Shown in pieces: positions 39,092 to 56,455 of a stretch of DNA of 64,000 nucleotides. This DNA comes from Alphaproteobacteria bacterium (GTDB lineage: Bacteria > Pseudomonadota > Alphaproteobacteria > CACIAM-22H2), in the NCBI GenBank assembly GCA_016124335.1, contig WGNX01000010.1, positions 1 to 64,000 of the forward strand, in the 5' to 3' direction. Position 1 is the first letter of the stretch, and each line of letters starts with the position of its first letter. The translations under genes were made by a program, and so were the position numbers. The notes beneath the pieces were generated by a model. The model was not told the DNA's origin. It made no database searches and was given only the letters and a program-made list of their open reading frames with translations.

Positions 39092-39104
39092 CGACGGGTT
39101 CCAC

Positions 39105-40910
39105 TCAGAGATTGGACTGGGTTTCAAAAAGCTGGCGATAGCGACCATCGCGCGACAGAAGGTCTTCGTGCCGGCCGACATCTGCGACGCGGCCCTTCTC
39201 GATCACGACGATCGTATCGGCACGCCGGATCGTCGAAAGCCGGTGCGCGACGACGACGATCGTCGTACGCCCGTGCAGTTCGGCGAGCGAGCGCTGGATC
39301 GCAGCCTCCGATTCGGCATCGAGAGCGCTTGTCGGCTCGTCGAGAATCAGGATGTCCGGATCCGCAGCGAGCGCCCGCGCCAGCGCCAGACGCTGGCGCT
39401 GGCCGCCCGAAAGGCGCGCGCCGCTTTCCCCGATGCGACTGTCGAGGCCTTCTGCGAGACCGTCGACGAACTCGAGGCAATAAGCCTGCTTGAGCGCCGC
39501 GCGCACGCCCGCGTCATCGAGTGGCGGCACGAGGCCATAGTTCACGTTGGCGCGAATCGTGTCGTCGAACAGGACGGTCTCCTGCGACACGACCTCGATC
39601 CGCCGGCGGTAGGACGGCAGCGCGATGTCCCGGATGTCCCGACCGTCATAGAGGATCCGGCCGATGCTCGGATCATAAAACCGCGCGAGGATGTCCACCA
39701 TCGTCGACTTCCCGGCACCCGAACGCCCGACGAGCGCTAGGAGGGTGCCCCGGCGGATCTCCAGATCGATGCCGAGCAGGGCAGGCACGTCGCCGGCTGC
39801 CGAATGATGCGCGAAATGCACGTTCTCGAACGCAATCGAATGCTTGAGCCGGTGAGCCGCGGCCGTCCCCGAGATCAAAGGCTTCCAAACCCGGGCGCCT
39901 TCCACCAACTGCGTATAGCTATCCACGGCCGCGCGGTTGGTGACAATGGAGATCCAAGAATTGTTGATCTGGTTCACCGCAGGCACCAGCCGCAGGCCGG
40001 CAAAGGCGACGAGCCCGAGTTCGGCGAGACTCAAGCCGAGATAGATTTTCGCAAGGCAAACGACGGTCAGTACAGAAATGAGGACGACGGGCTGGACCGT
40101 GGCACCAAGCCGCGCGTTGAGCCTTCCCATCGCGAGAAAATTCTCTGCCAACCGCAACGATAGGCCGTTTAGCTCGCGGATGGCCTCGGTCTCGCCTGTA
40201 CGCAATTTGACGATCCGGATCGCCTGCAACGTCGAAAGGAGGCGGACGGAGATCGCATTGCTGGCGCTTGTCGCCTCACGACCGACCTTCGATCCGCGCG
40301 CGACGATGGGACGGAAAGCCATGAACCCGAGAATCGTTAGCGGCACGCCGATGATCGCGACTTGGGGGGCAACCGACAGGATAAAGGCGGCATAGAGCAT
40401 CGCCTGAACAGAGCCCGCGCACAGATAAGCGAGCGACGACACGACGATGCCGATCCTTTTCGTCTCGCCGAACAGGGCGTTGTAGATCACGGCCCGCTGG
40501 CGGTTGAGATGGAACGGCATCTCGGCCGTGACGAACGCTGACACCCCTTCCCCCCGCAGCTTCACCTGCACATCTGACGACAGCTGTTGGGCCCGTAGAA
40601 TGACGAAATATTCCACAAGGGCGCGCAGAACGATCATGCCGATCAGGACGAGCAGGAGACTGACGAGACCGACCGGAAGACCTGCCCGTTCCAGACCCTG
40701 GATGAGCGTGCCAACCCGGCTGCCGGACCCGGTGACGGCCGCCTCACCGCCTTCGAGGTACAGCAAGACGGGATAGACGGATCCAACCGTTGCAAGCTCA
40801 CAAAAGGGGAGCGCCAAAAGGATGGCGCCGGTCGGCAGCCAATGACGCCAGCCGAGCCCGAGGCGCGACGTGCTCCGGATCGCCGAAGCGACGCCCAGCA
40901 GCGGGCTCAT
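39105..40910 (-). CDS. ABC transporter, fused permease/ATPase (MsbA/PglK-like)
   Basis: LLALVGRSGAGKSTMVDIL (Walker A), RLSGGQRQRLALARAL, ILILDEPTSALD; N-terminal TM domain. Confidence 0.92.
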   Translation of the reverse strand: MSPLLGVASAIRSTSRLGLGWRHWLPTGAILLALPFCELATVGSVYPVLLYLEGGEAAVTGSGSRVGTLIQGLERAGLPVGLVSLLLVLIGMIVLRALVEYFVILRAQQLSSDVQVKLRGEGVSAFVTAEMPFHLNRQRAVIYNALFGETKRIGIVVSSLAYLCAGSVQAMLYAAFILSVAPQVAIIGVPLTILGFMAFRPIVARGSKVGREATSASNAISVRLLSTLQAIRIVKLRTGETEAIRELNGLSLRLAENFLAMGRLNARLGATVQPVVLISVLTVVCLAKIYLGLSLAELGLVAFAGLRLVPAVNQINNSWISIVTNRAAVDSYTQLVEGARVWKPLISGTAAAHRLKHSIAFENVHFAHHSAAGDVPALLGIDLEIRRGTLLALVGRSGAGKSTMVDILARFYDPSIGRILYDGRDIRDIALPSYRRRIEVVSQETVLFDDTIRANVNYGLVPPLDDAGVRAALKQAYCLEFVDGLAEGLDSRIGESGARLSGGQRQRLALARALAADPDILILDEPTSALDAESEAAIQRSLAELHGRTTIVVVAHRLSTIRRADTIVVIEKGRVADVGRHEDLLSRDGRYRQLFETQSNL

Positions 40911-42274
40911 GCGCGCGCCTCGCCGAGTGCGGCGACATAGTCGGCGAGCCGTCGGGCATAGGGGGCTTCGAACCGCGTGACGAAACGTTCGCAGGCCCGC
41001 ACCAGCGCCGCACGCGTCACCGGATCGCGCGCGCGCGCGATTGCGTCGGCCACACCCGCGACGAGCATGGTCCGGCCCCGCGTCACCGGAAACGCCGGCT
41101 CCTCGAAGAATTCCTTGAAATGGGCAAGCTCGGAATTGATCGTCATGAACCAGTTTTCCACATCCGAATCGTCAACGAAACAGAGCGGCTGCTTGGCATT
41201 GAGAGCCGCTTCGAGAAGAATCGTGGACAGCGGCGACACGACAACATCAACATTCGCCAGAACGTCGCGCGTGTTCTCGTAGGCCGGTGTCGTGATCGCC
41301 CGTTCACCGCCGCCCGCCTGGCGGACGTAGTCCGCCATCGTGCTTTCGAAGGCGACGTGACGCCAAGGCCGCGTGGCGATCCGCTTGCCATCCCGGCCGC
41401 AATTGCCCCAGGGATGCGGGCGATAGACGATCGAAGCGCCGGCAAGCCGGCCGTCTTCGATCGCCGATTCCAGCGCATCGAGATCGGCATATTCGTCGGT
41501 GCCTTTGCTCGATCCGGCATAGAGCACGACCGTGCGCGCAGGATCGATTCCATGACGCGCGCAGAACGCCGCGCGGTCGAGTGACGGCGGCGTGCGGTAG
41601 ATGTCGAACTGGGCAGCGCCGAACGGCACGACGGATTCGGGCGGCAGCCCGGCGAAGCGGATCGCGTGTGCACGTGTCTGCTCGCCCCAGACGAGCAGAC
41701 GATCCGGATGCCCGACCATCGCGCGCTTCGTCGACGGATTGTCCCACGAGTTCATGATCGCCAAGAGCGGCACGCGGCGGCGGCGTGTAGCCTCGACAAG
41801 ATCGTTGAGATACGGTCCGGCCATCACGGTCGGATGCAGGATCGCATCCGGCCGCTCGGCGTCAAGCAGCGCGTCGAGCGGCGCGTTTTCGAGGCGCGCG
41901 GCCCGCGCCAACAGAATCCGCCGGTAGACCGACCAGACACCCGGGAGTCCGAAAAGGCGGTAGATCCGCGCGGTCCACGTGCCGATGGCCTTCTCATGGT
42001 GACGGGCGAGCGCACGCGCCTGCTCGCCCTTGCCGCCACGCAAGTTCTCGATCTGGAACATCCGCTGCCAGATCACGGAGCGTTCGACCATTTCCGGCAG
42101 CCGGAGCAGCTTGTCCGGCGCGATCGCCGAGAAGTCGGCGTCCTTGATACGCTTGTGACCCGGCGGCAGCGTGACATATCGCACGTTATGGCGCGCCTCG
42201 AGTTCCGAGAACGCGCCCGACGACACGAAATGCCGGACCATAATCGGATGGTCTAGAAAGATCAGGATCTTCAC
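40907..42274 (-). CDS. Capsule/CDP-glycerol-glycerophosphotransferase-like GT-B protein
   Basis: VKILIFLDHPIMVRHFVSSGAFSEL...RPHPWGNC...VVSPLSTILLEAALNAKQPLCF; GTG start in GTGA overlap. Confidence 0.6.
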   Translation of the reverse strand: MKILIFLDHPIMVRHFVSSGAFSELEARHNVRYVTLPPGHKRIKDADFSAIAPDKLLRLPEMVERSVIWQRMFQIENLRGGKGEQARALARHHEKAIGTWTARIYRLFGLPGVWSVYRRILLARAARLENAPLDALLDAERPDAILHPTVMAGPYLNDLVEATRRRRVPLLAIMNSWDNPSTKRAMVGHPDRLLVWGEQTRAHAIRFAGLPPESVVPFGAAQFDIYRTPPSLDRAAFCARHGIDPARTVVLYAGSSKGTDEYADLDALESAIEDGRLAGASIVYRPHPWGNCGRDGKRIATRPWRHVAFESTMADYVRQAGGGERAITTPAYENTRDVLANVDVVVSPLSTILLEAALNAKQPLCFVDDSDVENWFMTINSELAHFKEFFEEPAFPVTRGRTMLVAGVADAIARARDPVTRAALVRACERFVTRFEAPYARRLADYVAALGEARA

Positions 42275-42990
42275 GCCGGCGTCCCGCTCCGGGCGGACAT
42301 CGCACGCTCGACGGCGGCGAAATCCTCTTCGGTATCGATGCTGATCGCCGGCCCTTCGGTCACGACCGCGCCGTTGCGCGCGCCCATGATGGTGCCGCGC
42401 CCGAGCAGGCAGTCGCGCGAGAATGCATAGGAAAGGCCCGTCCGGTAGTAGACGGGCACAAGCTGCTGGCGCGCGACAATCTTTCCGCCATCGGGATCGT
42501 AATAGGAAAGCGACCCGCCCTCGCCGACGACCAGCGCCTTGCGTGGATGATATTTGAGATCGGCCGGCGACACCGTCCACACGGCGTCGAGCTTTTCGTC
42601 CACGAGCTTGACGTAGGTTGCGCGGACCTGCTCCGCTGTGCGCAGAGGCGAAGTGGGCTGGAGCATCAGCACGACGTCGTAAGTCGTGGCGTCGATGCGC
42701 TCCATCTCGCGCAGCGCATGGCACAGCACGTCGATGTCGCCGATCCGGTCGCCCGCCAGTGATTCCGGCCGCCGGAACGGCGCCGCAAGGCCCGACTCTT
42801 CTGCCACTTGCGCGATCTCGTCATGATCGGTCGATACGACGGCCCGGTCGATTTCCGGCAATGTGCGGACCAGATGTCCGACACGCGCGACGATCGGTAC
42901 GCCCATCACCGGACGCAGGTTCTTGAGCTTGACGCCCTTGCTGCCGCCGCGCGCGGGGCAGACAGCAAGGATTCGTGCGCTGGCGTACAT
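42271..42990 (-). CDS. neuA: Acylneuraminate cytidylyltransferase (NeuA-like)
   Basis: ILAVCPARGGSKGVKLKNLRPVMGVPIVA...VVLMLQPTSPLRTAEQVRA. Confidence 0.9.
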   Translation of the reverse strand: MYASARILAVCPARGGSKGVKLKNLRPVMGVPIVARVGHLVRTLPEIDRAVVSTDHDEIAQVAEESGLAAPFRRPESLAGDRIGDIDVLCHALREMERIDATTYDVVLMLQPTSPLRTAEQVRATYVKLVDEKLDAVWTVSPADLKYHPRKALVVGEGGSLSYYDPDGGKIVARQQLVPVYYRTGLSYAFSRDCLLGRGTIMGARNGAVVTEGPAISIDTEEDFAAVERAMSARSGTPA

Positions 42991-43003
42991 GACGCTCCGG
43001 AAC

Positions 43004-43759
43004 CTATCGGGATTTGCCGATGCGGAAATCGTGACCGCCGACGCCGTAGTAGCTGCCGGGCACGGTACCGCGTTCGGCAATGAATGCCGCGCGGTCGCGC
43101 GCGAGCGCACGGCTCTGCAGACGAAGCGCCGCCGAGGTGCGAATGTCGATGAAGCCGGACATCGCCATCCAGCTTTCGATCGCCTTGCGCGACGGAAGAT
43201 GGGTCACGTTCGAGCTTATGTGATACTTGCGCTTCACGGCGCCCTGCGGCGACGGATACCAGATCTCGACACAATTCTCGTTGGCGAGGAAGCGCCGGCG
43301 GGCGGTCGCGCTTTCGAGAACGAGCAACCCGCCCGGCCGCGTCAAGTCAAACAGGCGCGCGACCATCCGGAGTTGCTCGGGATTGTGGTAGAGCACGCCC
43401 GTGCACCAGACGAGATCGAACGGTTCGAGATCGTCGACCCACGGCTCGTACATGAGATTGCCGTAGCGGATCTCAAGACCGGGTCGCGCAAGCTTCGGGA
43501 GCCAAACGTCGTTCTCGGCCCGCTTGTCTTCGAGATCGACGAGCAGCATCTGCTCGGGCGCAAGTGTCAGGAGACGCGCAGTGTCGAGCCCGTCCTTCGG
43601 GCCGATCTCGAGTATGCGCAAGGGCCGCTTGCCAGCCAGACGCGCCACAAGTTCGTCGAAGAGATGGCCGCGATAGTCTTTTGCCGGTGCACCGAACAGG
43701 CGGCGCGCGACGTTCTTGACGGATTCTGGCGTGTGCGCGCGAAGGAGGCGGGCGATCAT
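43004..43759 (-). CDS. SAM-dependent methyltransferase
   Basis: RILEIGPKDGLDTARLLTLAPEQMLLVDLEDKR...FDLVWCTGVLYHNPEQLRM. Confidence 0.8.
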   Translation of the reverse strand: MIARLLRAHTPESVKNVARRLFGAPAKDYRGHLFDELVARLAGKRPLRILEIGPKDGLDTARLLTLAPEQMLLVDLEDKRAENDVWLPKLARPGLEIRYGNLMYEPWVDDLEPFDLVWCTGVLYHNPEQLRMVARLFDLTRPGGLLVLESATARRRFLANENCVEIWYPSPQGAVKRKYHISSNVTHLPSRKAIESWMAMSGFIDIRTSAALRLQSRALARDRAAFIAERGTVPGSYYGVGGHDFRIGKSR

Positions 43760-43771
43760 TGACGCTGCTAT

Positions 43772-44386
43772 CTAGGCCTGCGGGGAAAGACGGGATTCGA
43801 GCCACGCGACGGCTTCGGCCGGGCTGCGGCGGAAGAGCGCATTCGCGCTGTCATCGACGGGAATATGGCGGCAGCCAAGGGCGGCAGCGGATTGCGCATC
43901 GTCCGCACCATCGCCGATGACGATCGCATCACGCGTGCCTTCGGCCGCCAGGATGCGCTCCAGATTGGCGATCTTCACGCCGAAGCCGCCAAACTGTCCA
44001 GCGAGCAGCGGAGCAAGCCCCGACTGCACGAGAATGGCCGACAGTGCGTCCGGCGGCGTGGCCGAACTGACATAGAGGCGATGGCCGCGCGCACCCAGCA
44101 GGTGCAGGAACGACCGCGCCCAACCGTCTTCCAAGCGCCCGACGATCCCGGTCCGCGTCACGGTCTCGTAGCGATCGAGAAGCGTTGCCGCCATCTCCGG
44201 CCTGCCGATGGCTTCGGCGAGAGCGGCGAACAGCCATGCGCGGTCACCCTTCACAGGCGGCTTCAGCAGCCGGTCAAGATGCACGGAGGCATCCGGCAGC
44301 CCGTCGGCGACTATACGGAAAGCCTCGCGCTTGAGTGCATTCGAATCGACGAGCGTGCCGTCGAAATCGAAAACCAGAAGCGCCAA
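43772..44386 (-). CDS. HAD-family phosphatase
   Basis: LLVFDFDGTLVDSNALKREAF...YVSSATPPDALSAIL...AIVIGDGADDAQSAAALG. Confidence 0.9.
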   Translation of the reverse strand: MALLVFDFDGTLVDSNALKREAFRIVADGLPDASVHLDRLLKPPVKGDRAWLFAALAEAIGRPEMAATLLDRYETVTRTGIVGRLEDGWARSFLHLLGARGHRLYVSSATPPDALSAILVQSGLAPLLAGQFGGFGVKIANLERILAAEGTRDAIVIGDGADDAQSAAALGCRHIPVDDSANALFRRSPAEAVAWLESRLSPQA

Positions 44387-44398
44387 GGCGACCCTATC

Positions 44399-45937
44399 TC
44401 AGATCTGGTAGCGGCCCCAGTGATCGACCACCGTCTTGCGCTGCTCGCGCGTCAACGACTGGATGTTCGGGTCCTGGTAGACGGAGTCGTTGTTGTAATG
44501 CGTCGTCGACAGTTCCTCGACGACGGCACCCGCCTCGCTCCAGAAACGGTGCCAAACGCCCGGCAGCACAAGCTGCGTTTCGCCCGGCCCGAGATTACGC
44601 ACCCGGCCGTCGACTTCGACCGTCAGCTCGCCCGAAAGGACCTGGAAAGTCTCTTCCTTACGCTTGTGGAAATGCAGCGGATGGCGTTGGCCGGGCAGCT
44701 GCACGAGCAGCTTCTTGCAGTATTCGCGGTTGACGCAGGTGATCAGCGTCGTGCCGATCTCGCGGAACCGTTCCATTCCGAAGTGATGCGAGAACTCGAC
44801 CTGGAAACCGGTGTCGAGCACGACATGAGATTCGGCGAGCATCGCCTTGACGTCGTGGATGGCGCGCTTGAGTACCAGCGCACCCGGATCGCTCGGCAGC
44901 TTGAGCCCCGCGAGTTGCAGCGGCGCATCGGGCGCTAGTGCGGCAATCGAAACCGTCCCTTCGCGCCAGTGGCCGCTGTCGAGCTGGCCTTCGGCGCACG
45001 GCATCGCGAAATAGACCATCTCGCGCGTGACCGGCGTGCCAGCCTTGATCGGCGTACGGGCAAAAACGCCGCGACGCAGCGACAGGATCGAGTCCGCCTC
45101 GACTTTCGCCGCCGGCGGGCGCTCTAACGCGCCGCACATCGCCTTGGCCTTGCCATAGGCGACGATCCACTTGTCGACCTGGGCCGGCGTCGAGGAATAG
45201 GCGTTGAGCTTGATCTTGTCGGTCGTCACACCAACATGGCGTTCGTACATGCGGGCACCCTTGGCCACAGCGATCGCCACGGGCATCGTGTCGTCCGGGT
45301 CTTCGTGCGTCGACCAGCCGATTGTCACGCCCGGGAAGCGGCGGCGCAGCGCATCGACCTGGTTGAGCTGCATGTCGGCGTCGGGCGTGGGGTAGATCGA
45401 AACGCAGTGCATTAGCGCGAAGCGCACGGCGCGGTGCGAGAAGAAACTGACCAGATTGTCTATGTCGGCGATCGTCAGGCCTCCGGTCGAAGCGATGATC
45501 GGCAGGCCCGCCGCCGCGGCGTGCTCGAGCAGCGGCCAGTCGGCAGCCGAGCAGCTCGCGATCTTGAGCACATCGAAGCGCATCTCGCGAATGAGGTCGA
45601 CCGACGCTTCGTCGAACGGCGTGCAGATCGAAACGAGGCCCTGCGCGCGGACTTCGTCGAGCAGCGCCTGGAAACTCTGGCGGTCGAGGCGGGTCGAGAG
45701 GAACCGGCCGACATGTTTGTTGTCGGAAGTCTTGCGATGCGCGGGATGGATGAAGCTGTCGAGTTCGCGGAACTGGAACTTGATCCCGGCGCGCACGCCG
45801 TGCCGGCGCACCACTTCTGCGCATTCGCGCACAATGCGCTTGCCGTGTGCCACGTCGCCCTGGTGGTTGTTGGCGAGGTCGAGGACAAACAGGTCCTCGA
45901 AGCTGAACTGGGCATCCATCTGGATCGTATCAGGCAT
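44399..45937 (-). CDS. neuB: NeuB-family nonulosonate synthase with SAF domain and C-terminal cupin
   Basis: LFVLDLANNHQGDVAHGKRIV...CTPFDEASVDLIREMRFDVLKIASCSAADWPLL...SLRRGVFARTPIKAGTPVT; C-term HPLHFHKRKEETFQVLSGELTVEVDG cupin. Confidence 0.88.
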   Translation of the reverse strand: MPDTIQMDAQFSFEDLFVLDLANNHQGDVAHGKRIVRECAEVVRRHGVRAGIKFQFRELDSFIHPAHRKTSDNKHVGRFLSTRLDRQSFQALLDEVRAQGLVSICTPFDEASVDLIREMRFDVLKIASCSAADWPLLEHAAAAGLPIIASTGGLTIADIDNLVSFFSHRAVRFALMHCVSIYPTPDADMQLNQVDALRRRFPGVTIGWSTHEDPDDTMPVAIAVAKGARMYERHVGVTTDKIKLNAYSSTPAQVDKWIVAYGKAKAMCGALERPPAAKVEADSILSLRRGVFARTPIKAGTPVTREMVYFAMPCAEGQLDSGHWREGTVSIAALAPDAPLQLAGLKLPSDPGALVLKRAIHDVKAMLAESHVVLDTGFQVEFSHHFGMERFREIGTTLITCVNREYCKKLLVQLPGQRHPLHFHKRKEETFQVLSGELTVEVDGRVRNLGPGETQLVLPGVWHRFWSEAGAVVEELSTTHYNNDSVYQDPNIQSLTREQRKTVVDHWGRYQI

Positions 45938-45965
45938 TTTCTGGGGCTCGCGTATCGGGGAAGGG

Positions 45966-47060
45966 TCAGCTCTGGAGGGCATCGAGGTCCGGCGGGCGGG
46001 AATGGTCGAGACGCACGCGGCGGCCTGTGCGGGCCGATTCGTGCGCGGCGGCGATCACCAGCATCGTCTCGATGCCGCGCGCGAGCGCGAGCGGCGAGGC
46101 ATCGGGTGACCCCGACGCGAGAGCGGCTTCGATGTGCTGGAGTTCGCGGATGAAATCGTCGGGGCGGGTCTTGGCCACCTCCTCGAAGCCTTCACGGCCC
46201 GGGTTCGTCCACCAGCGTACCGCGTCGAAGCCGGGACGCACGCCGCATGTCCATTCGATCGACCCGGTGGAACCCTGCACGCGGGCCCATTTGCGGTGCG
46301 GCACCGTCACGACATCCTGCACGACGCGGCCGGCAATGCCGCCTTCGGTGCGCAGGTTGAGAAGCGCGATCCGGTCATAGTCAACTTTGCCGTCGCTCAC
46401 GTAATCGAGCGTCGCCTGCACTTCGGCCACTCGGCCTGTGCCGGCCTCGTGCGCGAGGAACTGCCAGAAGTTGATCGCGTGCGAATGCTCGCCAGTGGCG
46501 CCGCCGCCGCGCCTCCAGAAGCCGAGATAACTGTCGTGCGGACCCGCGAGCCAAGGATGGGCGGCGAAGATGCCGCCCCAGTGCTCGCGGAACTCGACAT
46601 CGATCGTCTGCACTTTGCCGATGTCGCCTGTCTTCAGGCGCTTCTGCGCGAGTTCGGCCGCGAGGCCGACGACATGGTCGTAGCCGACGAACACGGCCGT
46701 GCCCTGCGCCTTCGCTTTGGCTACCAGCTGGGCGAGGCCCGCGAGATCAGGCATGCAGAGCGGTTTCTCGATCTGCAGGGCGCGCGGCTTCTCGTCGAGA
46801 GCGGCGAGCGCAAGCGCCAGATGATGGTCGGGCGGCGTGCCCACGCAGATCAGGTCGTATCCGGACTTGGGCGCCTTGGCGGATTCGTGCAGACCGATCT
46901 CCGCATCCCACTTGCCATAGCGGCCAGGGTAAAGGCTCGTGCGCGTACGCTCGAGCGCCGCCGAGTCGACGTCGCAGATGTCGACCTGCCAGCCGAGACG
47001 GCGCGAGGCATTGGCAAGGTGGTTGCCGATCGAGCCGGCGCCGTGGATCTTTACGCGCAT
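45966..47060 (-). CDS. Gfo/Idh/MocA-family oxidoreductase
   Basis: MRVKIHGAGSIGNHLANASRRLGWQVDICDVDSAAL...RALQIEKPLCMPDLAGLAQLV. Confidence 0.87.
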   Translation of the reverse strand: MRVKIHGAGSIGNHLANASRRLGWQVDICDVDSAALERTRTSLYPGRYGKWDAEIGLHESAKAPKSGYDLICVGTPPDHHLALALAALDEKPRALQIEKPLCMPDLAGLAQLVAKAKAQGTAVFVGYDHVVGLAAELAQKRLKTGDIGKVQTIDVEFREHWGGIFAAHPWLAGPHDSYLGFWRRGGGATGEHSHAINFWQFLAHEAGTGRVAEVQATLDYVSDGKVDYDRIALLNLRTEGGIAGRVVQDVVTVPHRKWARVQGSTGSIEWTCGVRPGFDAVRWWTNPGREGFEEVAKTRPDDFIRELQHIEAALASGSPDASPLALARGIETMLVIAAAHESARTGRRVRLDHSRPPDLDALQS

Positions 47061-47115
47061 CGTGGGGTGTCCATGCAAACTGGGAATGGAGGCGTTCGGT
47101 CGTCGTTTCGAACCA

Positions 47116-47126
47116 ATGCTACCGCA
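47116..47126 (-). promoter_or_regulatory. ops/JUMPstart-like element in leader of the long minus-strand operon
   Basis: Minus strand GTGCGGTAGCATTGG; TGCGGTAGCAT vs GGCGGTAGNNT: one mismatch at fixed positions; 56 nt upstream of first CDS, on the transcribed strand. Confidence 0.4.
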
Positions 47127-47195
47127 CAGCGGGTGACCCGAAGGCCGCCCATGATCCCTGCCAGAGCCTTGCGAATCGGAGGCACAGGGATGTTT

Positions 47196-47210
47196 GTTCA
47201 CGTCGTGAAC
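47196..47210. promoter_or_regulatory. Perfect palindromic operator candidate GTTCACGTCGTGAAC
   Basis: Direct reading; recurs with 13/15 identity at 54439-54453. Confidence 0.7.
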
Positions 47211-47236
47211 ATAGTGCCGTCCCCTATACCGGTCAA
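47208..47236 (-). promoter_or_regulatory. Sigma70-like promoter for the minus-strand operon
   Basis: Minus strand -35 TTGACC (47231-47236), 17-bp spacer, -10 TATGTT (47208-47213); -10 overlaps the palindrome. Confidence 0.5.
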
Positions 47237-47368
47237 GCGACGCTTCCGAAGCCCAAGTCGGGTCACGGTCAAAAACCAAACCATTGTAATTGGACAATAA
47301 TTCGGCAATTCTGAGACCCTAGGGCGGTTGGCTATTGAACGGCATCTACCGGCCGACGAGGACCTAAG

Positions 47369-48370
47369 ATGGGATTGGGCGGCAATCTTATGTGGACGGG
47401 CGTCATCGCTGCACTCGCGCGCGATCGCCGGCCCTTGGTGCTGGCCATGCAGCCGAAGCTGACCGACCTTTTGGCGGGGCGCGACCATGATCGTTCGGCA
47501 AACCTGTCGGCCGATCCAGTGTTCCGCGGGAATCCGCATATCGCCTTCACGCCTTATCGTCCCAAGGGCACATTCGCCCGCAGGGTCGACAATCTGTTCA
47601 TGGCAGTGCTCGAACGCCTTGGCCTGCGCAGGCGCTTCGAGCGCATGCTTGCCGCCCGTGCACACGCCCGGCCCGGCCCGCTGATGCTGCATGTCGATAT
47701 GGAAATCCATTCATATGCCGACGCACAAGTCGGCCCGCCGGAGCGTCGCCACTTCCGCTGGAAGGACGGCGGCCACGCGATCCGGACCATGCTTGCGGGC
47801 TTCGCGCCCGGACGCGCAGAAGCACCGCCGGAGATCCATCTCGACGATACCGACTGCGCACGCGCGAAGACATTGCTCGACGAGATGCGGATCGACGACG
47901 GGTTCATTGCGATCGAGCCTGAAACCAACCCCGAGTTCTTCGGCGACCTGCGGGCCTGGCCGTTCGAACGCTGGCAGGCGGTCGTGACCGCACTTGCCGG
48001 CGAAGGGCATCGCGTCGCGCAAGTCGGACTGCCCGGCGGACGGGCGCTTGAAGGTGCGGTTGATCTGCGCGGCCGGACCGATTTCAGGGCGGCCTGCGCG
48101 ATCCTGGCCCGCGCGCGGCTGTTCCTTGGAACGGAAAGCGGGCTCATGCATGCCGCGCGCGCCGTCGACACCGATGCCGTCATCGTGTGGGGCGGCGTGA
48201 CGCTGCCCGAATTTGCTGGCTATCCCGACCAGCACGACATCGTGTGCCATCGCGTGGCCTGCGCACCCTGCGGCAATCTCGGCTGGTGCGACAACAAACG
48301 CATCTGCATGCTGGACATCGACACCGCCGAGGTCCTCGCGCGCATACGCGCGCGGCTCGCAAAAAGCTAG
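47369..48370 (+). CDS. Glycosyltransferase family 9 (heptosyltransferase-like)
   Basis: MGLGGNLMWTGVIAALARD...GFIAIEPETNPEFFGDLRAWPFERWQAVV...LGTESGLMHAARAVDTDAVIVWGG. Confidence 0.82.
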   Translation: MGLGGNLMWTGVIAALARDRRPLVLAMQPKLTDLLAGRDHDRSANLSADPVFRGNPHIAFTPYRPKGTFARRVDNLFMAVLERLGLRRRFERMLAARAHARPGPLMLHVDMEIHSYADAQVGPPERRHFRWKDGGHAIRTMLAGFAPGRAEAPPEIHLDDTDCARAKTLLDEMRIDDGFIAIEPETNPEFFGDLRAWPFERWQAVVTALAGEGHRVAQVGLPGGRALEGAVDLRGRTDFRAACAILARARLFLGTESGLMHAARAVDTDAVIVWGGVTLPEFAGYPDQHDIVCHRVACAPCGNLGWCDNKRICMLDIDTAEVLARIRARLAKS

Positions 48371-49137
48371 ACGGGCTTGCGCGCCAGCGCTACCAGCATG
48401 TGCCCGACGACGGCCGCCGGCAGGACCGGTGCAGCCAGGCGCGCAAGCGGTGCGGCAAACCGGCCGAAGCCGGACAGCGCGCGCTGCGTTCCGCTCAATT
48501 TTCCGATTGGCTTGATGCGCTCGACAGAAAAGCCCGCGATCGCAAGTTCGCGCGCAAGCTCGTTGCGAGTCAGCCGCCACTGGTAGAAGCGCAGCGACTC
48601 GCCGGGCGACGGCGCAGGCGTCGTGCACGCCGCAGTGATCGCGTGGCGCAGATTGTCATAGGGGACCGAAATCGCGAGTAAAGCACCGGGCTTGAGAAGC
48701 CGAAACGCCTCGCGCAGACAACCCTGCAGCCCGTCCTCGAAATGCTCGAACACGCCCCAGGAGAAATAGAAGTCCGTGCTGTCGCCGGGCAGGCCCGTGG
48801 CGCGAATATCAGCCACGCGGAAGGCCTGCGCACCGAACAGGCGATTGAGTTCGGCGACCGTCAGATCGGCGATGTCGATGCCTGTCGCCTCGAAGCCTTG
48901 CGCGCGCAGATGCGCCGTCCAGGCGCCGAGCCCGCAACCGCCGTCAAGGATGCGGGCACCCTTGGGCAGACGCGAAATCTCTTCGGCAATCGCCGCGTAT
49001 TCCTCGGTGCGGGTGACGTCGGCAAGCGCGGCTGCCGGGCCGCCTTCCCGCTTCCAGATCGCTGCCCAGTGATCGGCGATGAAACGCGTCTCGTCCCGCG
49101 TCTCGTCGCTCCGCACGCTCATATAGTCCTTGCGCAT
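48367..49137 (-). CDS. SAM-dependent methyltransferase
   Basis: ARILDGGCGLGAWTAHLRAQGFEATGIDIADLTV...FYFSWGVFEHFEDG. Confidence 0.88.
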   Translation of the reverse strand: MRKDYMSVRSDETRDETRFIADHWAAIWKREGGPAAALADVTRTEEYAAIAEEISRLPKGARILDGGCGLGAWTAHLRAQGFEATGIDIADLTVAELNRLFGAQAFRVADIRATGLPGDSTDFYFSWGVFEHFEDGLQGCLREAFRLLKPGALLAISVPYDNLRHAITAACTTPAPSPGESLRFYQWRLTRNELARELAIAGFSVERIKPIGKLSGTQRALSGFGRFAAPLARLAAPVLPAAVVGHMLVALARKPV

Positions 49138-49142
49138 GCCGT

Positions 49143-50132
49143 CTATCGCCCTCGGAACTGGAATTGCACGCGCAATGCCGCAAGCGTGCCGGGAATTCTG
49201 GGTGCAAGACGCCCTGCCCTGCGCAGGTCCGCCATCTCGCGCGCGAACGTCTCGTAGCGATCCGCGATCTCCGCAATCGTCGGCACGCGGATCGCGGACC
49301 TGAACGCATCGTAGCGTGCCGCCACCTCCGCTAGAAGCGCCGGGACATCAGCATGGTTCTCGAACAGGAGACCGCCCTCGCCCACGAGTTCGGGATGCCC
49401 GCCGTCGGCCCGCGCGACGACCGGCAGGCCGACCGTAAGCGCTTCGATCACGCTGTTCGAGCAGGGATCCTTGCGTGAAGCCGTGAGGAAGACGTCATGC
49501 GCCGCAAGCTCGCGGGCGAGCGCGGCACTGTCGAGCGGACCGGTGGCGCGGACATAGGTGAAGGGGGACGGCGTATTTCCGACAAACGTCATCGCGAATT
49601 TCGCCGGATCGAGATTCGAATCGAGCCATGCATAGGCGTCGAACCCCTTGTTCGGGTTGCTCGACCAGCTGGACGCGATGATGCGCAGCGGCACGCCAGG
49701 GCCGCGCCCGTCGCGCGGCCGGAACATGCCATGATCGGCAGCGTTGCCGATCACGGCCTCGGGCCGATCCGTCGGCCAGCCCAGCTCGCGGTTCGCGCGG
49801 CGGGACCATTCTGTCTGGAAAACGGTCGCGTCGGCGACGAGTCCGTTGGCGCGCATGGCCAGCTCGTCTCGGGGATCGTCGGGCCGGTTGTAGAGGCGCA
49901 TTGGGCCGTCGACGCGATGGATAAAGATCGCGTCCGGATTCCTGCGCCGTAACGCAAGCACCGGCAGGAAATTCTGGTAGCTGTTGAAAAGGACGACCCC
50001 TGCCGCACGTCTGTCGTCGGTATGGCGGCCCCGGCGCACGAGCTCCGCACGCAGCGCACGCAGGAACTGGTTTCCACCGCCCGTGGGTGCATCGACAACC
50101 GGAAAGGCGACGTGGAAGGATGCTGGTTTCAT
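49143..50132 (-). CDS. Glycosyltransferase family 4
   Basis: VVDAPTGGGNQFLRALRAEL...VFLTASRKDPCSNSVIEALTVGLPVVARADGGHPELVGEGG. Confidence 0.85.
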   Translation of the reverse strand: MKPASFHVAFPVVDAPTGGGNQFLRALRAELVRRGRHTDDRRAAGVVLFNSYQNFLPVLALRRRNPDAIFIHRVDGPMRLYNRPDDPRDELAMRANGLVADATVFQTEWSRRANRELGWPTDRPEAVIGNAADHGMFRPRDGRGPGVPLRIIASSWSSNPNKGFDAYAWLDSNLDPAKFAMTFVGNTPSPFTYVRATGPLDSAALARELAAHDVFLTASRKDPCSNSVIEALTVGLPVVARADGGHPELVGEGGLLFENHADVPALLAEVAARYDAFRSAIRVPTIAEIADRYETFAREMADLRRAGRLAPRIPGTLAALRVQFQFRGR

Positions 50133-50878
50133 CGCGGCTTGCGCAGCACGACTGCCTGCTGCGTATGAAGCGACCAGACCGGGCGGCGCCACAGGAACGG
50201 ATTGGATCCTCGTGCAGCAGCAGCGTTGATCGCGAGGCGGACAAGCCACCCGAACCGCCCGCCCGCCCAGCGGTAGAGTTCATACCAGAATACCGGATGG
50301 GTCTGCCGGTGTACCTCGACCGGACCGAAATGCGTCGCGCACATCTGCGCAAATTCTTCGGGGAACCACTCCTGGACATGCAGCGGATCGAGCGGGCGTT
50401 CGGATACCCGTTGCGGCGTCGTCACGACGAATACGCCGCCCGGCTTCAGGATCCGGCGCGCCTCCGCAAGCAGACGATCGGGGTGGCGGACATGCTCGAT
50501 CACGTCGGCGGAGATGGCGGCATCGAACGACGCGTCTGGCAGGCCAGTGGCATAGGCATCGCCGACGACGAACTCACCCCGCCAACTGCGGCGCGCGAAT
50601 TCGGCGCGGGCGTGTCCGATCGCAGCGGCGCTCGGATCAATGCCGACCACTTCGGCATCGAGCTCGCGGCTCAGCATTCCGGCAAGCGCACCGTCACCAC
50701 AGCCAATGTCGGCGACGCGCGCGCCACGCGACACACCGGCTGCACGCAGGCAATCGACCGCAAGCATATATCGGCCGAGCGTGTAGGCGTTCAGCTGGCC
50801 GCGCGATCCTTCGATCTCCGACCAGTGATAGGCGCCCTTCTTTTCGTACTTGTCGAACTCGATCTCAGCCTCGGTCAT
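50129..50878 (-). CDS. SAM-dependent methyltransferase
   Basis: ARVADIGCGDGALAGMLSRELDAEVVGIDPS...FDAAISADVIEHVRHPDRLLAEARRILKPGG. Confidence 0.9.
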   Translation of the reverse strand: MTEAEIEFDKYEKKGAYHWSEIEGSRGQLNAYTLGRYMLAVDCLRAAGVSRGARVADIGCGDGALAGMLSRELDAEVVGIDPSAAAIGHARAEFARRSWRGEFVVGDAYATGLPDASFDAAISADVIEHVRHPDRLLAEARRILKPGGVFVVTTPQRVSERPLDPLHVQEWFPEEFAQMCATHFGPVEVHRQTHPVFWYELYRWAGGRFGWLVRLAINAAAARGSNPFLWRRPVWSLHTQQAVVLRKPR

Positions 50879-51996
50879 GCCGGCACTGCCTCTTTCCCCG
50901 AAATCAGCCGATCGATGGCGGAGGCCATCGCGCCCGAATCGAATTGCGTCTCGACCAGACGGCGGGCGCGAGCGCCCATGCTCACGGCATCGGAAGGATT
51001 CGCCAGGATCTCCGCTACGGCCGACGTCAGGGCCGCCACATCGCCCGGCGGCACCAGCCGGCACGTGTCACCGTCGAGGATGGATTCAGGGTCCCAGAAA
51101 CCGTCGACCCGAGTGATTACGACGGCACATCCGCAGGCCATCGCCTGCAGGCAGGCACTCTGCCCTGAGGGTTGGCCTGTCTGGCGGATCGGCAAGACGA
51201 CGAGTGCGGCACCGCGATAGATTTCGCGCACCTCGACGTCGGACAGCGCCCGTTCGTGCCAATCGCCGCGCGTGACTTCGACATTGGCCGGCGGGCCGGA
51301 AATCCGGTGGTTCGTGACGATCCGCAGGACCGGGAACTCCGGACGCCACGCAGCCAGCAACGTCGCATAGTCGCGGTTGCGATCGTTGCCAATCGACAGG
51401 ACGTAGGGCGAAGCTCTGTTGGCTGGGACACCCGGCGTCCAGAAGCGCGTATCGACGCCGAAGGCGAGATAGTGGAGATCGAGACGGGGTGCCGTCGTTC
51501 TCAGGAACGCAAATTCAAGCTTCGATATGGACGCGACCCGCGCGATGCCGAGCAGCCAGACAAACAGTCTGAGCTGGATGCCCGGCGACACGTCCGCGAG
51601 AATCCCCATCGCCAGCACGAAAGCCTGCGCTCGAAGTAGGCCCGCGCGCTTGAGCGCACACAATGCAATGGCCTGACCCGTCGTCGTCGCGACGATCACA
51701 TCGGCAGAGTCGAATCGTCGACGCGCAGCGGGCGACCACATGTGCGAGGCGATGACCGACGGAAAGGCCGGAACAAGAAACCGCAGGAAGAACGCCAACA
51801 GCTTCCAAAGGGCGCCGGAAATCTGATCCGGTGCCGGCACGCCTGCGAGGGCGCCCAAAGCCGCGGCATCGAGCTCGTCGACCTCGTGTCCGAGCGCGCC
51901 GAGGCCGGCCGCTCCGTAGAAGAACTCGTCCGGCGAATCAGCCAGCGTCCGCCGTTCGGCCCGGCCTGCCTTGTAGAGATATAGGATGTGGGTCAA
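50875..51996 (-). CDS. Glycosyltransferase family 4
   Basis: PYVLSIGNDRNRDYATLLAAW...GAALVVLPIRQTGQPSGQSACLQAMACGCAVVITRVDGFWD. Confidence 0.82.
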   Translation of the reverse strand: MTHILYLYKAGRAERRTLADSPDEFFYGAAGLGALGHEVDELDAAALGALAGVPAPDQISGALWKLLAFFLRFLVPAFPSVIASHMWSPAARRRFDSADVIVATTTGQAIALCALKRAGLLRAQAFVLAMGILADVSPGIQLRLFVWLLGIARVASISKLEFAFLRTTAPRLDLHYLAFGVDTRFWTPGVPANRASPYVLSIGNDRNRDYATLLAAWRPEFPVLRIVTNHRISGPPANVEVTRGDWHERALSDVEVREIYRGAALVVLPIRQTGQPSGQSACLQAMACGCAVVITRVDGFWDPESILDGDTCRLVPPGDVAALTSAVAEILANPSDAVSMGARARRLVETQFDSGAMASAIDRLISGKEAVPA

Positions 51997-52015
51997 AATC
52001 GTACGCTGGACGCGA

Positions 52016-53161
52016 TCAGCGCGCGATGGCAGCGCGCAGCGCGCCGGTCACGCGGTCGATCGACGCGTCGTCGAGATAGGCGTGCATCGGCAGGCTGAGC
52101 ACCTCGCCCGCCAGCCTGTCGCTTACCGGCAAGCCGTTACTGGCGACCGGATACTGCGCGTAGGCCGTCTGGCGGTGCATCGGGCGCACATAGTAGATGG
52201 CAGTAGGTACGCCGGCTGCCTTCAGCTTCGCGACGATGGATTCGCGCTGGCCTGCCGGAACGCGCACCGTGTACTGCGCCCAAGTCGAGACGCAGTCCTT
52301 CGAGACTTGCGGCGTGCCGCAGACATCGCGCAGCGCTTCGTCGTATCGCCGGGCCACACGCTGGCGCGCCACAATCTCGTCCTCGTAGATCGCGAGCTTG
52401 TGCAGCAGCACGGCCGCCTGGATCGTGTCCATGCGGCCATTCATGCCGATCCGCACATTGTCGTACTTGTCTTCGCCCTGGCCGTGGACGCGCAGGCTTT
52501 CGAGCACGGCGAGCTGCGCCTTGTCATGCACGAACACCGCTCCGCCGTCGCCGTAGCAGCCCAGCGGCTTGGCTGGGAAGAAGCTCGTGGCCGCGAAATC
52601 GCCGAGCGAGCCGACGCGGCGACCTTTGTAGGTGCCGCCGAAGCCCTGCGCGCAGTCCGACATCAGCCACATTCCGTTCCGGCGCGTGATCGGCTGAAGC
52701 GCGTCGTAGTCGACGGGATGGCCGAACAGGTCGACTGCGATCAGGCCGACAGGCTTGAGCCCGAGCTTCTTGGCGGTGGCAATGCCCGCTTCGACCGATG
52801 CCGGATCGACGCAGAATGTCGCGGCATCGACATCGACGAACACTGGCGTCGCGCCGAACCAGGCGACGACCTCACCCGTCGCCGCGAACGTGAAGGACGG
52901 CACGAGCACCGCTTCGCCCGGCTCCAGGTCCTTGAGCATCAGCAGAAGGGCGAGCGCGTCAGTGCCGTTGGCGCAGGAGAGCACATGCGGAACGCCGCAG
53001 AATGCCGCGAGCTTTGACTCAAGCTCCGCGATCTCGGGTCCCATGATGTAGCGGCCCGAACGCACGACCGACAGGATCGCCTGTTCGAGCGCCGGGCCCA
53101 ACCGCTCGCGCTGCGTCTGGAGATCTATGAAGGGGAGTGGTGCGGCGGACAGACTGTTCAT
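52016..53161 (-). CDS. DegT/DnrJ/EryC1/StrS aminotransferase
   Basis: LPFIDLQTQRERLGPALEQAILSVVRSGRYIMGPEIAELE...CANGTDALALLL...SFFPAKPLGCYGDGGAVF. Confidence 0.93.
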   Translation of the reverse strand: MNSLSAAPLPFIDLQTQRERLGPALEQAILSVVRSGRYIMGPEIAELESKLAAFCGVPHVLSCANGTDALALLLMLKDLEPGEAVLVPSFTFAATGEVVAWFGATPVFVDVDAATFCVDPASVEAGIATAKKLGLKPVGLIAVDLFGHPVDYDALQPITRRNGMWLMSDCAQGFGGTYKGRRVGSLGDFAATSFFPAKPLGCYGDGGAVFVHDKAQLAVLESLRVHGQGEDKYDNVRIGMNGRMDTIQAAVLLHKLAIYEDEIVARQRVARRYDEALRDVCGTPQVSKDCVSTWAQYTVRVPAGQRESIVAKLKAAGVPTAIYYVRPMHRQTAYAQYPVASNGLPVSDRLAGEVLSLPMHAYLDDASIDRVTGALRAAIAR

Positions 53162-53208
53162 GGCAACGGGAATCCTGAAAGCAGGGAAGGAACGGACGAC
53201 AGTACCCG

Positions 53209-53709
53209 TCAGGCGAGTGCCACCGCATGGCGCGGCATGCACATGCAGACTTCTCGGCCGAGCAGATCGAGCAGCAGCACAACCCGTTCGCTTTCTGCTG
53301 CCGACTGGAGCCGCCCGACGAGGTCGGCGAAGGGTCCGGACAGGATGCGTACCGCCGAACCCGCGCCGGCACCGGCGAGTGGATCGACCGCGTCAAACGA
53401 ATGGCTTTCTTCCCCGGCGCGGATTTCTTCGACGACGCCGGCGGGCACGGGCGCCGGCTGATCGCCGTTGCGCACCACATCGCAAACGCCGAAGGTCGAG
53501 AGGATTGGACGCCAGCGCGCGCGCATCAAGTCGAGCGCCACAAAAAGATAGCGCGGAAAAAGGGGGCGTTCGACGATATCGGTTTTTCGTGCATGCGTGC
53601 GCCGGCGGCGGTAGCGCGGCAAATATGCTTCGTAACCCTGACGCCGCAGGTTGGCGAGCGCGCGCGCTTCGCCGTTGGGCTGCGTATAGACGACGTACCA
53701 GTCGCTCAC
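53209..53709 (-). CDS. NusG-paralog / RfaH-like transcription antiterminator
   Basis: MSDWYVVYTQPNGEARALANLRRQGYEAYLPRYRRRRTHARKTDIVERPLFPRYLFVALD; KOW-like C-term VRILSGPFADLVGRLQS. Confidence 0.9.
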   Translation of the reverse strand: MSDWYVVYTQPNGEARALANLRRQGYEAYLPRYRRRRTHARKTDIVERPLFPRYLFVALDLMRARWRPILSTFGVCDVVRNGDQPAPVPAGVVEEIRAGEESHSFDAVDPLAGAGAGSAVRILSGPFADLVGRLQSAAESERVVLLLDLLGREVCMCMPRHAVALA

Positions 53710-54374
53710 GCGGTCTCCACCGTGCGCAGCGCGGCCCTCCGGCTCAGGCGCAGCAGTTCGGGCGCAACAACGTCGTTGCGCTCGAGTTTCATCGTAGGAG
53801 CCGATTCGAGTGCGGCTTCGTAGCTGGCCAGCGGATTGCGCATGTCGCAGATCGCGAGCGCGTCGGCCCGACCCGCAAAATCCCGCAGGCTGGCGGCGAC
53901 CAACAAACCAAGGAAATTTTCACCCGCGCGCGCCGGATCGGCGAGCCCGACGACATCGATGCCGACTTCACGTGCGGAAAGCGTCGCCGCCTCAGCGAGT
54001 TCGGATACGCCGACCAGCACTAGACGCGAGCGGCCGCGTTCGCGCAGCGTTGCGAACAGTTCGCTGTATTGGCGTCGCGCATCACGGAACAGATCGAACG
54101 AGAATCGAAGATACTCAACCGTCAGCCGGCTCTTTTCGGCAAAGCCCGACGGCGTCAGATAATAGGCGTAGCGATTGAGCGGCGCGTTGGAGATCTTGAT
54201 GAGCCCCTTGCGCACGCAGCGGCGCAGCACGGCATTGGCCAGACCCAGCGCAATGCCAAGCTGGCTCGACAGGCCACGCTGGGTGACGCGCGCATCCTCG
54301 TCGACGACCGACAGCACGCCCAGAAGCAGTGCGGTATCATCGCGGTCGATCTTCGAGGTCTGGACGTCGGTCAT
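53706..54374 (-). CDS. Winged-helix transcriptional regulator with C-terminal Rossmann-like domain
   Basis: wHTH VTQRGLSSQLGIALGLANAVLRRCVRKGLIKISNAPLNRYAYYLTPSGFAEKSRL; C-term SRLVLVGVSELAEAATLSAREVGIDVVGLADP. Confidence 0.82.
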   Translation of the reverse strand: MTDVQTSKIDRDDTALLLGVLSVVDEDARVTQRGLSSQLGIALGLANAVLRRCVRKGLIKISNAPLNRYAYYLTPSGFAEKSRLTVEYLRFSFDLFRDARRQYSELFATLRERGRSRLVLVGVSELAEAATLSAREVGIDVVGLADPARAGENFLGLLVAASLRDFAGRADALAICDMRNPLASYEAALESAPTMKLERNDVVAPELLRLSRRAALRTVETA

Positions 54375-54438
54375 CGGCAGGCTCAAAGGCTGGCCGGGCG
54401 GATAGGGGTTGCCTCGCCCGTGAAAGATGTTCTAGCTT

Positions 54439-54453
54439 GTTCACGCGGTGAAC
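54439..54453. promoter_or_regulatory. Second palindromic operator candidate GTTCACGCGGTGAAC
   Basis: 13/15 identical to 47196-47210; lies within a minus-strand promoter (-35 TTGACG 54453-54458; -10 TAGAAC 54429-54434 or CTAGAA 54430-54435). Confidence 0.65.
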
Positions 54454-54541
54454 GTCAACTCTCATCCGCATCGGCTTTTTAAGTTAAATCAACTCGATAA
54501 GTCGATCCCGAGCTTCCCTCCATTGCCGGATAGGCCATCCC

Positions 54542-56455
54542 ATGTGCGGTATCGCCGGTCTTCTCGATCGTCGCGCCCAGCTCGCCCCAGACACGCTGAC
54601 CCGCACCGTCCGCGCGATGACAGACGCGATCGCCCATCGCGGGCCCGACGGTGACGGCATCTGGACCGACCCCGAAGCCGGCATCGGATTCGGCCACCGG
54701 CGCCTTGCAATCATCGACGTCTCCCCGCTCGGCGCCCAGCCGATGGAATCGGCCTGCGGGCGCTATGTCGCGACCTATAACGGCGAGATCTACAATTTCG
54801 CCGAGTTGCGTGCGAAGCTCGCCGCTGCTGGAGCCCGCTTCCGCGGCGGCTCTGACACCGAGGTTGTCCTCGAAGGCTTCGTGCGCTGGGGCGTGGAAGC
54901 CACGATCGCGCGCTGCGTGGGCATGTTCGCCTTCGCGCTCTGGGACCGGCAGACGCGCACGCTGCGGCTGATCCGCGACCGGCTCGGCGTCAAGCCGCTC
55001 TACTACGCACACTTAGACACGCGCCTGCTGTTCGCCTCCGAACTCAAGGCGATGCGCGCCGTCGCCGACTGGCAGCCCACGCTCGATCGCGACGCGCTCG
55101 CTGGCTACGTGCGTCATGGCTATGTCGCCGCGCCGAACACGATCTACGCGCAGGCGAAGAAGCTGCCGCCTAGCCACATCCTCGAATGGACGCTAGGAGC
55201 CGAACCGTGCATCGCGCCCTATTGGGACGCGCGCGCGCAGGCATCGGCGGGCCGCGCGCAATGGGCGCAGCCGCGCGACGACAAGACCACGATCGACCGA
55301 CTCGAAGCGCTGCTAAAGGACGCTGTCGCCAAACGCATGGTTTCCGACGTTCCGCTCGGCGCGTTCCTGTCGGGCGGAATCGATTCGTCTCTGGTCGTGG
55401 CCTTGATGCAGGCGCAGAGCGCGCGACCGGTTAAGACATTCACGATCGGCTTCGGCGAAGCCGACTACGACGAAGCACGGCACGCCAAGGCCATCGCCGC
55501 CCATCTGGGGACCGAACATACCGAGCTCTATGTTGAACCGCGCCACGCGCTCGACGTCGTGCCGAGGCTCGCCGACATGTACGACGAGCCCTTCGCCGAT
55601 TCCTCGCAGATTCCTACTTTCCTCGTCTCGGAGATGACGCGCCGGAACGTAACGGTCGCGCTGTCAGGCGACGGCGGCGACGAGCTGTTTGCCGGCTACA
55701 ACCGATATGTCTGGGCCGAGACATTGTGGTCCTGGATCGCGCGCATGCCCGCACCGCTGCGCCGTGCCGCCGCGACAGTGGCAGAGCGAGTTCCGGGCGG
55801 GCTCGCCCGCCTGCTTCCCGTGGTTCGTCCGCACGAGAAACTCGCCAAACTTGCCGAGATTCTGCGTCTCGACGGAATCGATTCTGTCTATAGGCGGCTC
55901 GTCAGCCAATGGCCTGATCCTGCTCGGCTCGTGCGTGGCGGACGGGAGCCCTCCGGTGCGCTATGGAATGCCGGATTGACGAAGGATTTCCCCGAGCCGA
56001 TCGCCCGCATGCAGATGATCGACACGCTGACCTATTTGCCCGACGACATCCTTGCCAAGGTGGATCGCGCGACGATGGCGGTCGGCCTCGAGGGTCGCGA
56101 ACCCCTCCTCGACCATCGGCTTCTTGAGTTTGCCTGGACCCTGCCGCCGTCGTTCAAGCTGCGCGGCGGCCAAGGCAAATGGCCGCTGCGCCGCGTGCTC
56201 GAGCGCTATGTTCCCCAGGCACTGTTCGAACGGCCGAAGATGGGTTTCGGCGTGCCGATCGATTCGTGGCTGCGCGGTCCGCTGCGCGATTGGGCGGAAG
56301 ACCTGCTCGACGCGAAGGCACTTGCCGCCGACGGTCTGTTTGATCCTGCCCCGGTGCGAAGCGCCTGGGCCGCCCATCTCGCGGGGACACGCGAGATGCA
56401 ATATCCGCTCTGGGTCGTACTGATGTTCCAGGCGTGGAAGCGGCGCTGGGCCTAG
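54542..56455 (+). CDS. asnB: Asparagine synthase (glutamine-hydrolysing), surface-glycan type
   Basis: MCGIAGLLDRRAQLAPDTLTRTVRAMTDAIAHRGPDGDG...LGAFLSGGIDSSLVVALM. Confidence 0.95.
   Translation: MCGIAGLLDRRAQLAPDTLTRTVRAMTDAIAHRGPDGDGIWTDPEAGIGFGHRRLAIIDVSPLGAQPMESACGRYVATYNGEIYNFAELRAKLAAAGARFRGGSDTEVVLEGFVRWGVEATIARCVGMFAFALWDRQTRTLRLIRDRLGVKPLYYAHLDTRLLFASELKAMRAVADWQPTLDRDALAGYVRHGYVAAPNTIYAQAKKLPPSHILEWTLGAEPCIAPYWDARAQASAGRAQWAQPRDDKTTIDRLEALLKDAVAKRMVSDVPLGAFLSGGIDSSLVVALMQAQSARPVKTFTIGFGEADYDEARHAKAIAAHLGTEHTELYVEPRHALDVVPRLADMYDEPFADSSQIPTFLVSEMTRRNVTVALSGDGGDELFAGYNRYVWAETLWSWIARMPAPLRRAAATVAERVPGGLARLLPVVRPHEKLAKLAEILRLDGIDSVYRRLVSQWPDPARLVRGGREPSGALWNAGLTKDFPEPIARMQMIDTLTYLPDDILAKVDRATMAVGLEGREPLLDHRLLEFAWTLPPSFKLRGGQGKWPLRRVLERYVPQALFERPKMGFGVPIDSWLRGPLRDWAEDLLDAKALAADGLFDPAPVRSAWAAHLAGTREMQYPLWVVLMFQAWKRRWA

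Follow-up and report, generated by a model that had tools for sequence, protein, structure and literature searches.

Does a regulator encoded within a glycan locus control that locus through a shared operator? The question is raised by a stretch of 64,000 nucleotides from an Alphaproteobacteria bacterium (assembly GCA_016124335.1, contig WGNX01000010.1), here called the window, in which two similar palindromes stand ahead of two glycan operons. The original prediction, made from the sequence alone, held that both are operators of a winged helix-turn-helix (wHTH) regulator encoded beside one of them, which would regulate its own gene, the long operon and possibly two divergent genes as well. 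From comparative sequence analysis, we consider it very likely that the regulator acts through both operators as an autoregulated repressor of the MarR_EPS type and that an RfaH paralog encoded next to it, loaded at an ops-like element, serves the long operon.

Two palindromes overlap the promoters of two glycan operons

The palindromes lie where they had been placed, at 47196-47210 (site 1) and 54439-54453 (site 2), with 13 of 15 positions identical and TT preceding each (TTGTTCACG). In site 1 the centre base is the sole departure from perfect symmetry, and site 2 has 6-bp arms separated by a 3-bp spacer. The flanking genes are also as described: a Gfo/Idh gene (minus strand) and a GT9 heptosyltransferase-like gene (plus strand) around site 1, and the wHTH regulator (minus) and an asnB-type amidotransferase (plus) around site 2. 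Because the sites are inverted repeats, we rejected LexA-type sites as an identification; the LexA boxes of Alphaproteobacteria are direct repeats, GTTC-N7-GTTC.

47196..47210, no strand: putative operator site 1, GTTCACGTCGTGAAC, of the form YGTTCA-N5-TGAACR, overlapping the -10 end of the long-operon promoter; a syntenic copy with the same geometry is present in the relative G017
54439..54453, no strand: putative operator site 2, GTTCACGCGGTGAAC, within the 18-bp spacer of the regulator promoter; kept in relatives
47208..47236, minus strand: sigma70-like promoter TTGACC-17-TATGTT of the long glycan operon; the G017 counterpart is TTGACG-17-TACGTT
54429..54458, minus strand: regulator promoter TTGACG-18-TAGAAC, with TTGACGTTCA-N5-TGAAC as its conserved core
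53706..54374, minus strand: regulator, a MarR_EPS-like winged helix with a Rossmann-like C-terminal domain (HTH_24, TIGR04176, AlphaFold2 model, Foldseek)

Both proposed promoters held up. The one at site 1 is the only sigma70-like match that a promoter scan returned in its intergenic region, and the last three bases of its -10 are the first three of the operator. The consensus scan missed the promoter at site 2, which is visible by eye and strongly conserved in relatives. As expected of an autoregulated operator-promoter, the operator thus overlaps core promoter elements and is conserved alongside the regulator gene.

No third exact palindrome had been noticed by eye. A scan of the genome, available at 2.9 Mb and about 75% completeness, agrees, with the palindrome in 2 places and no match in a reversed control. 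When 2-3 mismatches were allowed, counts in the window and in its own genome matched chance, with no enrichment. Within one genome the pair alone is therefore only suggestive, its significance comes from other genomes, and we claim no additional weak sites.

The palindrome is conserved with the regulator gene

The regulator is present in 20 of the 23 genomes of the family. Just upstream of nearly every ortholog, from the family and from named genomes, we found TTGACGTTCA-N5-TGAAC and, after it, a -10-like TA, within surrounding DNA that has diverged. Neither of the patterns that would speak against a dedicated operator was seen: nearly every ortholog has a copy at its own promoter, so the palindrome is not absent where the regulator is kept, and unrelated copies are not numerous, relatives carrying 0-5 per genome. 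A search for GTTCAY-N3-RTGAAC in the 23 family genomes gave 35 sites, often sharing a contig with the regulator, compared to 5 when the control was reversed sequence; one genome (G014) has five such sites inside 37 kb. Phylogenetic footprinting of both intergenic regions, which the original prediction had proposed, identified a full syntenic locus with both sites in G017, in the order asnB, site, regulator, rfaH, DegT, glycosyltransferases, GT9, site, ops, Gfo/Idh, NeuB-like and further genes. Because the palindrome is kept with the regulator, has few genomic copies and is retained at both places in G017, predicted autoregulation and control of the long operon are well supported at the sequence level.

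The association extends across the class. Across 386 alphaproteobacterial genomes, a scan of DNA only for TTGACGTTCA-N5-TGAAC returned 44 sites in 38 genomes and a single control match, and a regulator profile matched in 87 of the 386. Every one of the 38 operator-bearing genomes carries the regulator (log10 P = -27.9), and 37 of the 44 sites lie at most 250 bp upstream of its gene. Among the regulator upstream regions that lack the exact motif (n=40), 30 contain TTCA-N5-TGAA (0.3 expected) and the other 10 contain versions matching at 8/10 or 9/10 positions. Alignment of 168 distinct sites gives the consensus YGTTCA-N5-TGAACR.

Many orthologs have additional operator copies, mostly spaced 23-24 bp apart. 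The offsets between TTGAC and the operator fall into several fixed classes, of which -5, the spacer position, is the commonest; at +22 the operator stands 7 nt before the -35, and at +19 it stands 4 nt before it.

A probable shared operator in the wider MarR_EPS family

To look beyond this group of orthologs, we searched 399 genomes of the phylum with TIGR04176 and assessed the short members above its cut-off. Outside the Alphaproteobacteria, each of the 16 assessable members has GTTCA-N5-TGAAC no more than about 200 nt upstream, and none of the 3 above-cut-off members inside the class does; for the whole set (n=19), shuffling predicts 0.003 occurrences. Since the motif stands upstream of members outside the class, the operator is probably a property of the MarR_EPS family.

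Two groups of sequences stand apart. Upstream of three alphaproteobacterial short MarR_EPS-like genes (L175, L176 and L178), an ops-like GTGCGGTAGC lies directly upstream with only half an operator (CAATTATGAAC), so these short regulators may themselves be RfaH targets. In one alphaproteobacterial family (f23, L202-L211), a TIGR04176-like domain occurs within open frames of about 700 residues with no upstream operator; these could be a fusion protein or an unrelated wHTH.

The regulator combines a MarR_EPS-like winged helix with a Rossmann-like domain

Pfam assigns the winged helix of the regulator to HTH_24, as it does in 45/45 orthologs, among which the wHTH is near-invariant. Residues 18-101 match TIGR04176 (MarR_EPS) with 60.2 bits, below the curated cut-off of 88, and the protein shares the family's homologous winged helix and glycan-locus neighbours. 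In the AlphaFold2 model, residues from about 101 to 210 form a high-confidence alpha/beta Rossmann-like domain (block means >90). The best Foldseek matches to the model, at E 0.003 and with low TM-scores, are Rossmann domains that bind CoA or NAD, succinyl-CoA synthetase alpha among them. Searched as a profile against solved structures, the regulator had no match, and Pfam returned only scattered weak Rossmann-type matches to the C-terminal domain. The modelled fold makes a metabolite ligand plausible for this domain, and the regulator is probably a dimer.

An RfaH-like paralog and an ops-like element accompany the operator

The original prediction about the operators and the regulator is supported. 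It overlooked the adjacent RfaH paralog and the ops-like element in the site-1 leader, as well as the wider MarR_EPS operator.

53209..53709, minus strand: RfaH-like specialised NusG paralog (NusG domain, TIGR01955, matches to RfaH in the PDB), probably co-transcribed with the regulator
47116..47136, minus strand: ops-like element TCACCCGCTGTGCGGTAGCAT in its extended form, within the long-operon leader and some 70 nt downstream of the operator

The paralog has a NusG domain and scores 122.9 bits against TIGR01955, below the cut-off of 144.5. Additionally, the window has one copy of GCGGTAGCNT, the core of the RfaH ops. This copy lies within the site-1 operon leader, at 47116-47125 (minus strand), so that the predicted target does carry an ops-like element in its leader. 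The arrangement recurs: operator-N65-95-GCGGTAGC has 10 matches in 8 of the 386 genomes and none in the controls, and 7 of these 8 genomes are regulator-positive. The first genes behind it encode PseB (three times) and epimerase, RmlD-, formyltransferase- and NeuD-like proteins; in the window, the first gene is Gfo/Idh.

Elsewhere the element follows rfaH itself. GCGGTAGC lies 48-101 nt past the rfaH stop in 18 of 42 regulator-rfaH loci and never on the opposite strand. The copies share an extension, TCACCC-N4-TGCGGTAGC, which is present in the window too. This extended form occurs in 34 of 382 genomes (control 0), and 28 of the 34 encode the regulator (P = 7e-15). Its usual position is some 600 bp beyond the regulator, just after rfaH. 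Where a relative has ops behind rfaH in one operon, polymerase passes the regulator and paralog genes before it reaches the ops.

Six genomes (G037, G025, G149, G153, G181 and G280) have the extended ops TCACCC-N4-TGCGGTAGC with no regulator detected, and may use an RfaH paralog without a MarR_EPS partner. At L081:8340, L090:5499, L125:1501 and L131:1501, the operator stands a constant 7 nt before a TTGAC -35 and is followed by ops, a geometry that could mean activation.

A model for joint control of initiation and elongation

The sites, their conservation, synteny and co-occurrence, and the ops association were all observed directly. Building on them, we infer operator binding, repression rather than activation, a ligand and antitermination, in the following scheme. 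The regulator would repress two promoters: its own, with the operator occupying the spacer between -35 and -10, and that of the long operon, with the operator lying over the -10 and start region. Binding or loss of a ligand, perhaps a nucleotide-sugar, NAD(H) or a CoA-type metabolite, would open the two promoters together. The regulator operon would then yield regulator and RfaH paralog, and the paralog would load onto RNA polymerase at the ops-like TCACCC-N4-TGCGGTAGCAT in the long-operon leader and carry it through the 10-kb glycan operon, preventing premature termination.

We also lean towards a broader proposal, with less assurance than for the locus itself. Surface-glycan operons of the Pseudomonadota may share a widespread two-tier module in which the MarR_EPS operator YGTTCA-N5-TGAACR gates initiation, an RfaH-like antiterminator acts at TCACCC-N4-TGCGGTAGC in Alphaproteobacteria, and the Rossmann domain senses a sugar-nucleotide or redox metabolite.

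Alternatives to an autoregulated repressor with an RfaH-like partner

Several observations weigh against this model. The wHTH region is poor in the AlphaFold2 model, and co-occurrence of operator and regulator within close lineages is not fully independent, the motif having been derived first from near relatives, although its matches span many families. Some operator sites in relatives lack an ops. In some relatives the operator directly precedes the -35, a position that leaves room for activation. Finally, the paralog has Q10, F73 and R48 at the positions of E. coli K10, R73 and E48; we therefore call it RfaH-like rather than RfaH, and the details of its recruitment may differ. The loss of these ops-contact and autoinhibition residues, together with a 2026 preprint reporting monomorphic RfaH homologs that are ops-independent and lack some ops-binding residues (PMC13015549), would fit GCGGTAGC being a plain pause or leader signal of RNA polymerase and the paralog being ops-independent. 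We doubt this, as the recurrence of GCGGTAGC is specific to two settings, past rfaH and behind operator promoters, and its core is identical to that of the E. coli ops.

The clustering of TTGAC-operator offsets at fixed positions including +22 and +19, and the upstream-of--35 geometry of some ops-bearing targets (L125, L131), would suit an activator, or a regulator whose action depends on position, with activation where the site shortly precedes the -35 and self-repression from the spacer. We regard this as unlikely, if well worth keeping in view: both window sites overlap core promoter elements, which are classic repressor positions, the commonest offset is the spacer position, and many +19 cases are second copies in tandem autoregulatory sites. 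Binding by the regulator is itself predicted from sequence, and sites also precede glycan operons distant from it, so another conserved factor might bind the palindrome while the regulator co-occurs merely through shared glycan clusters. That explanation is very improbable, given that the sites track the regulator gene in all 38 genomes and sit at its promoter, and that the association reaches distant TIGR04176 proteins of other classes in which the wHTH is the common part. Chance resemblance between two palindromes in one genome would agree with the lack of relaxed-motif enrichment in the window, but conservation in G017 and the class-wide comparisons refute it, and we give it virtually no credence. 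An autoregulated MarR_EPS-type repressor paired with an RfaH-like protein remains our preferred reading.

Genes of the two operons and their divergent neighbors

45966..47060, minus strand: Gfo/Idh/MocA oxidoreductase (Pfam), first gene of the long operon
36858..45982, minus strand: remainder of the long glycan operon (open reading frames; PseB and ABC profiles), with its extent and some gene names predicted
47369..48370, plus strand: GT9 heptosyltransferase-like gene, divergent from the long operon; it also adjoins a site in G014 and G017
48367..53161, minus strand: remainder of the regulator operon, with a DegT aminotransferase, glycosyltransferases and methyltransferases (DegT Pfam, open reading frames); operon extent predicted
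54542..56455, plus strand: asnB-type amidotransferase, divergent from the regulator here and in most same-genus relatives

The genes at 36858..45982 encode a NeuB-like synthase with a cupin tail, a HAD phosphatase, a methyltransferase, a CMP-sugar synthetase, a glycan-transfer-like protein, an ABC exporter, PseB (above its profile cut-off) and a DegT aminotransferase. Most of the long operon's gene order is retained in G017, and the remainder of the regulator operon is retained in G017 and G011. Promoter scans found no plus-strand promoter for asnB or GT9 in either intergenic region of the window, and we therefore do not claim operator control of these two genes, which the original prediction had left as a possibility. 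In several relatives (L073:9642, L082:7650 and L083:6640), an extra operator copy lies 20-46 nt before the divergent asnB start, which suggests that asnB is co-regulated in those with a copy of its own.

Comparison with known systems

The nearest relative of the regulator is the NCBIfam family TIGR04176, MarR_EPS (MarR family EPS-associated transcriptional regulator), with which it shares the homologous winged helix, the setting in glycan clusters and the GTTCA-N5-TGAAC found upstream in other classes. The window regulator differs in scoring below the cut-off and in its additional Rossmann-like C-terminal domain. Rex-type regulators also combine a winged helix with a Rossmann domain, in the same order as here, wHTH then Rossmann-like; no sequence match of the regulator to Rex was found.

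Our literature search for MarR_EPS, its operator, or a MarR protein with RfaH in glycan loci gave nothing relevant beyond one remark, and novelty is provisional as most subscription papers were outside its coverage. The remark is that genes of RfaH cluster CL4 neighbour a helix-turn-helix transcriptional regulator (Wang et al. 2020, PMC7593976), possibly the regulator-rfaH pairing seen here; the passages concerned do not mention the operator, regulon or ops. The present analysis assigns an operator to MarR_EPS, a family with none described in the literature searched, making regulons predictable from sequence alone. It also puts forward a concrete signal for the recruitment of RfaH-like proteins in Alphaproteobacteria. 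Those passages leave this question open and describe recruitment as known in detail for E. coli RfaH only. A joint initiation and elongation switch, if true, would account for how a long glycan cluster is kept silent or expressed as a whole.

The likeness to E. coli RfaH/ops lies in the NusG-type NGN domain, the TIGR01955 similarity and the ops core GCGGTAGC in the leader of a long envelope operon. In contrast to the E. coli system, the paralog scores below the family cut-off, has K10, R73 and E48 replaced, and is encoded beside its predicted targets with a MarR-type partner, while the window-type ops bears the conserved TCACCC extension.

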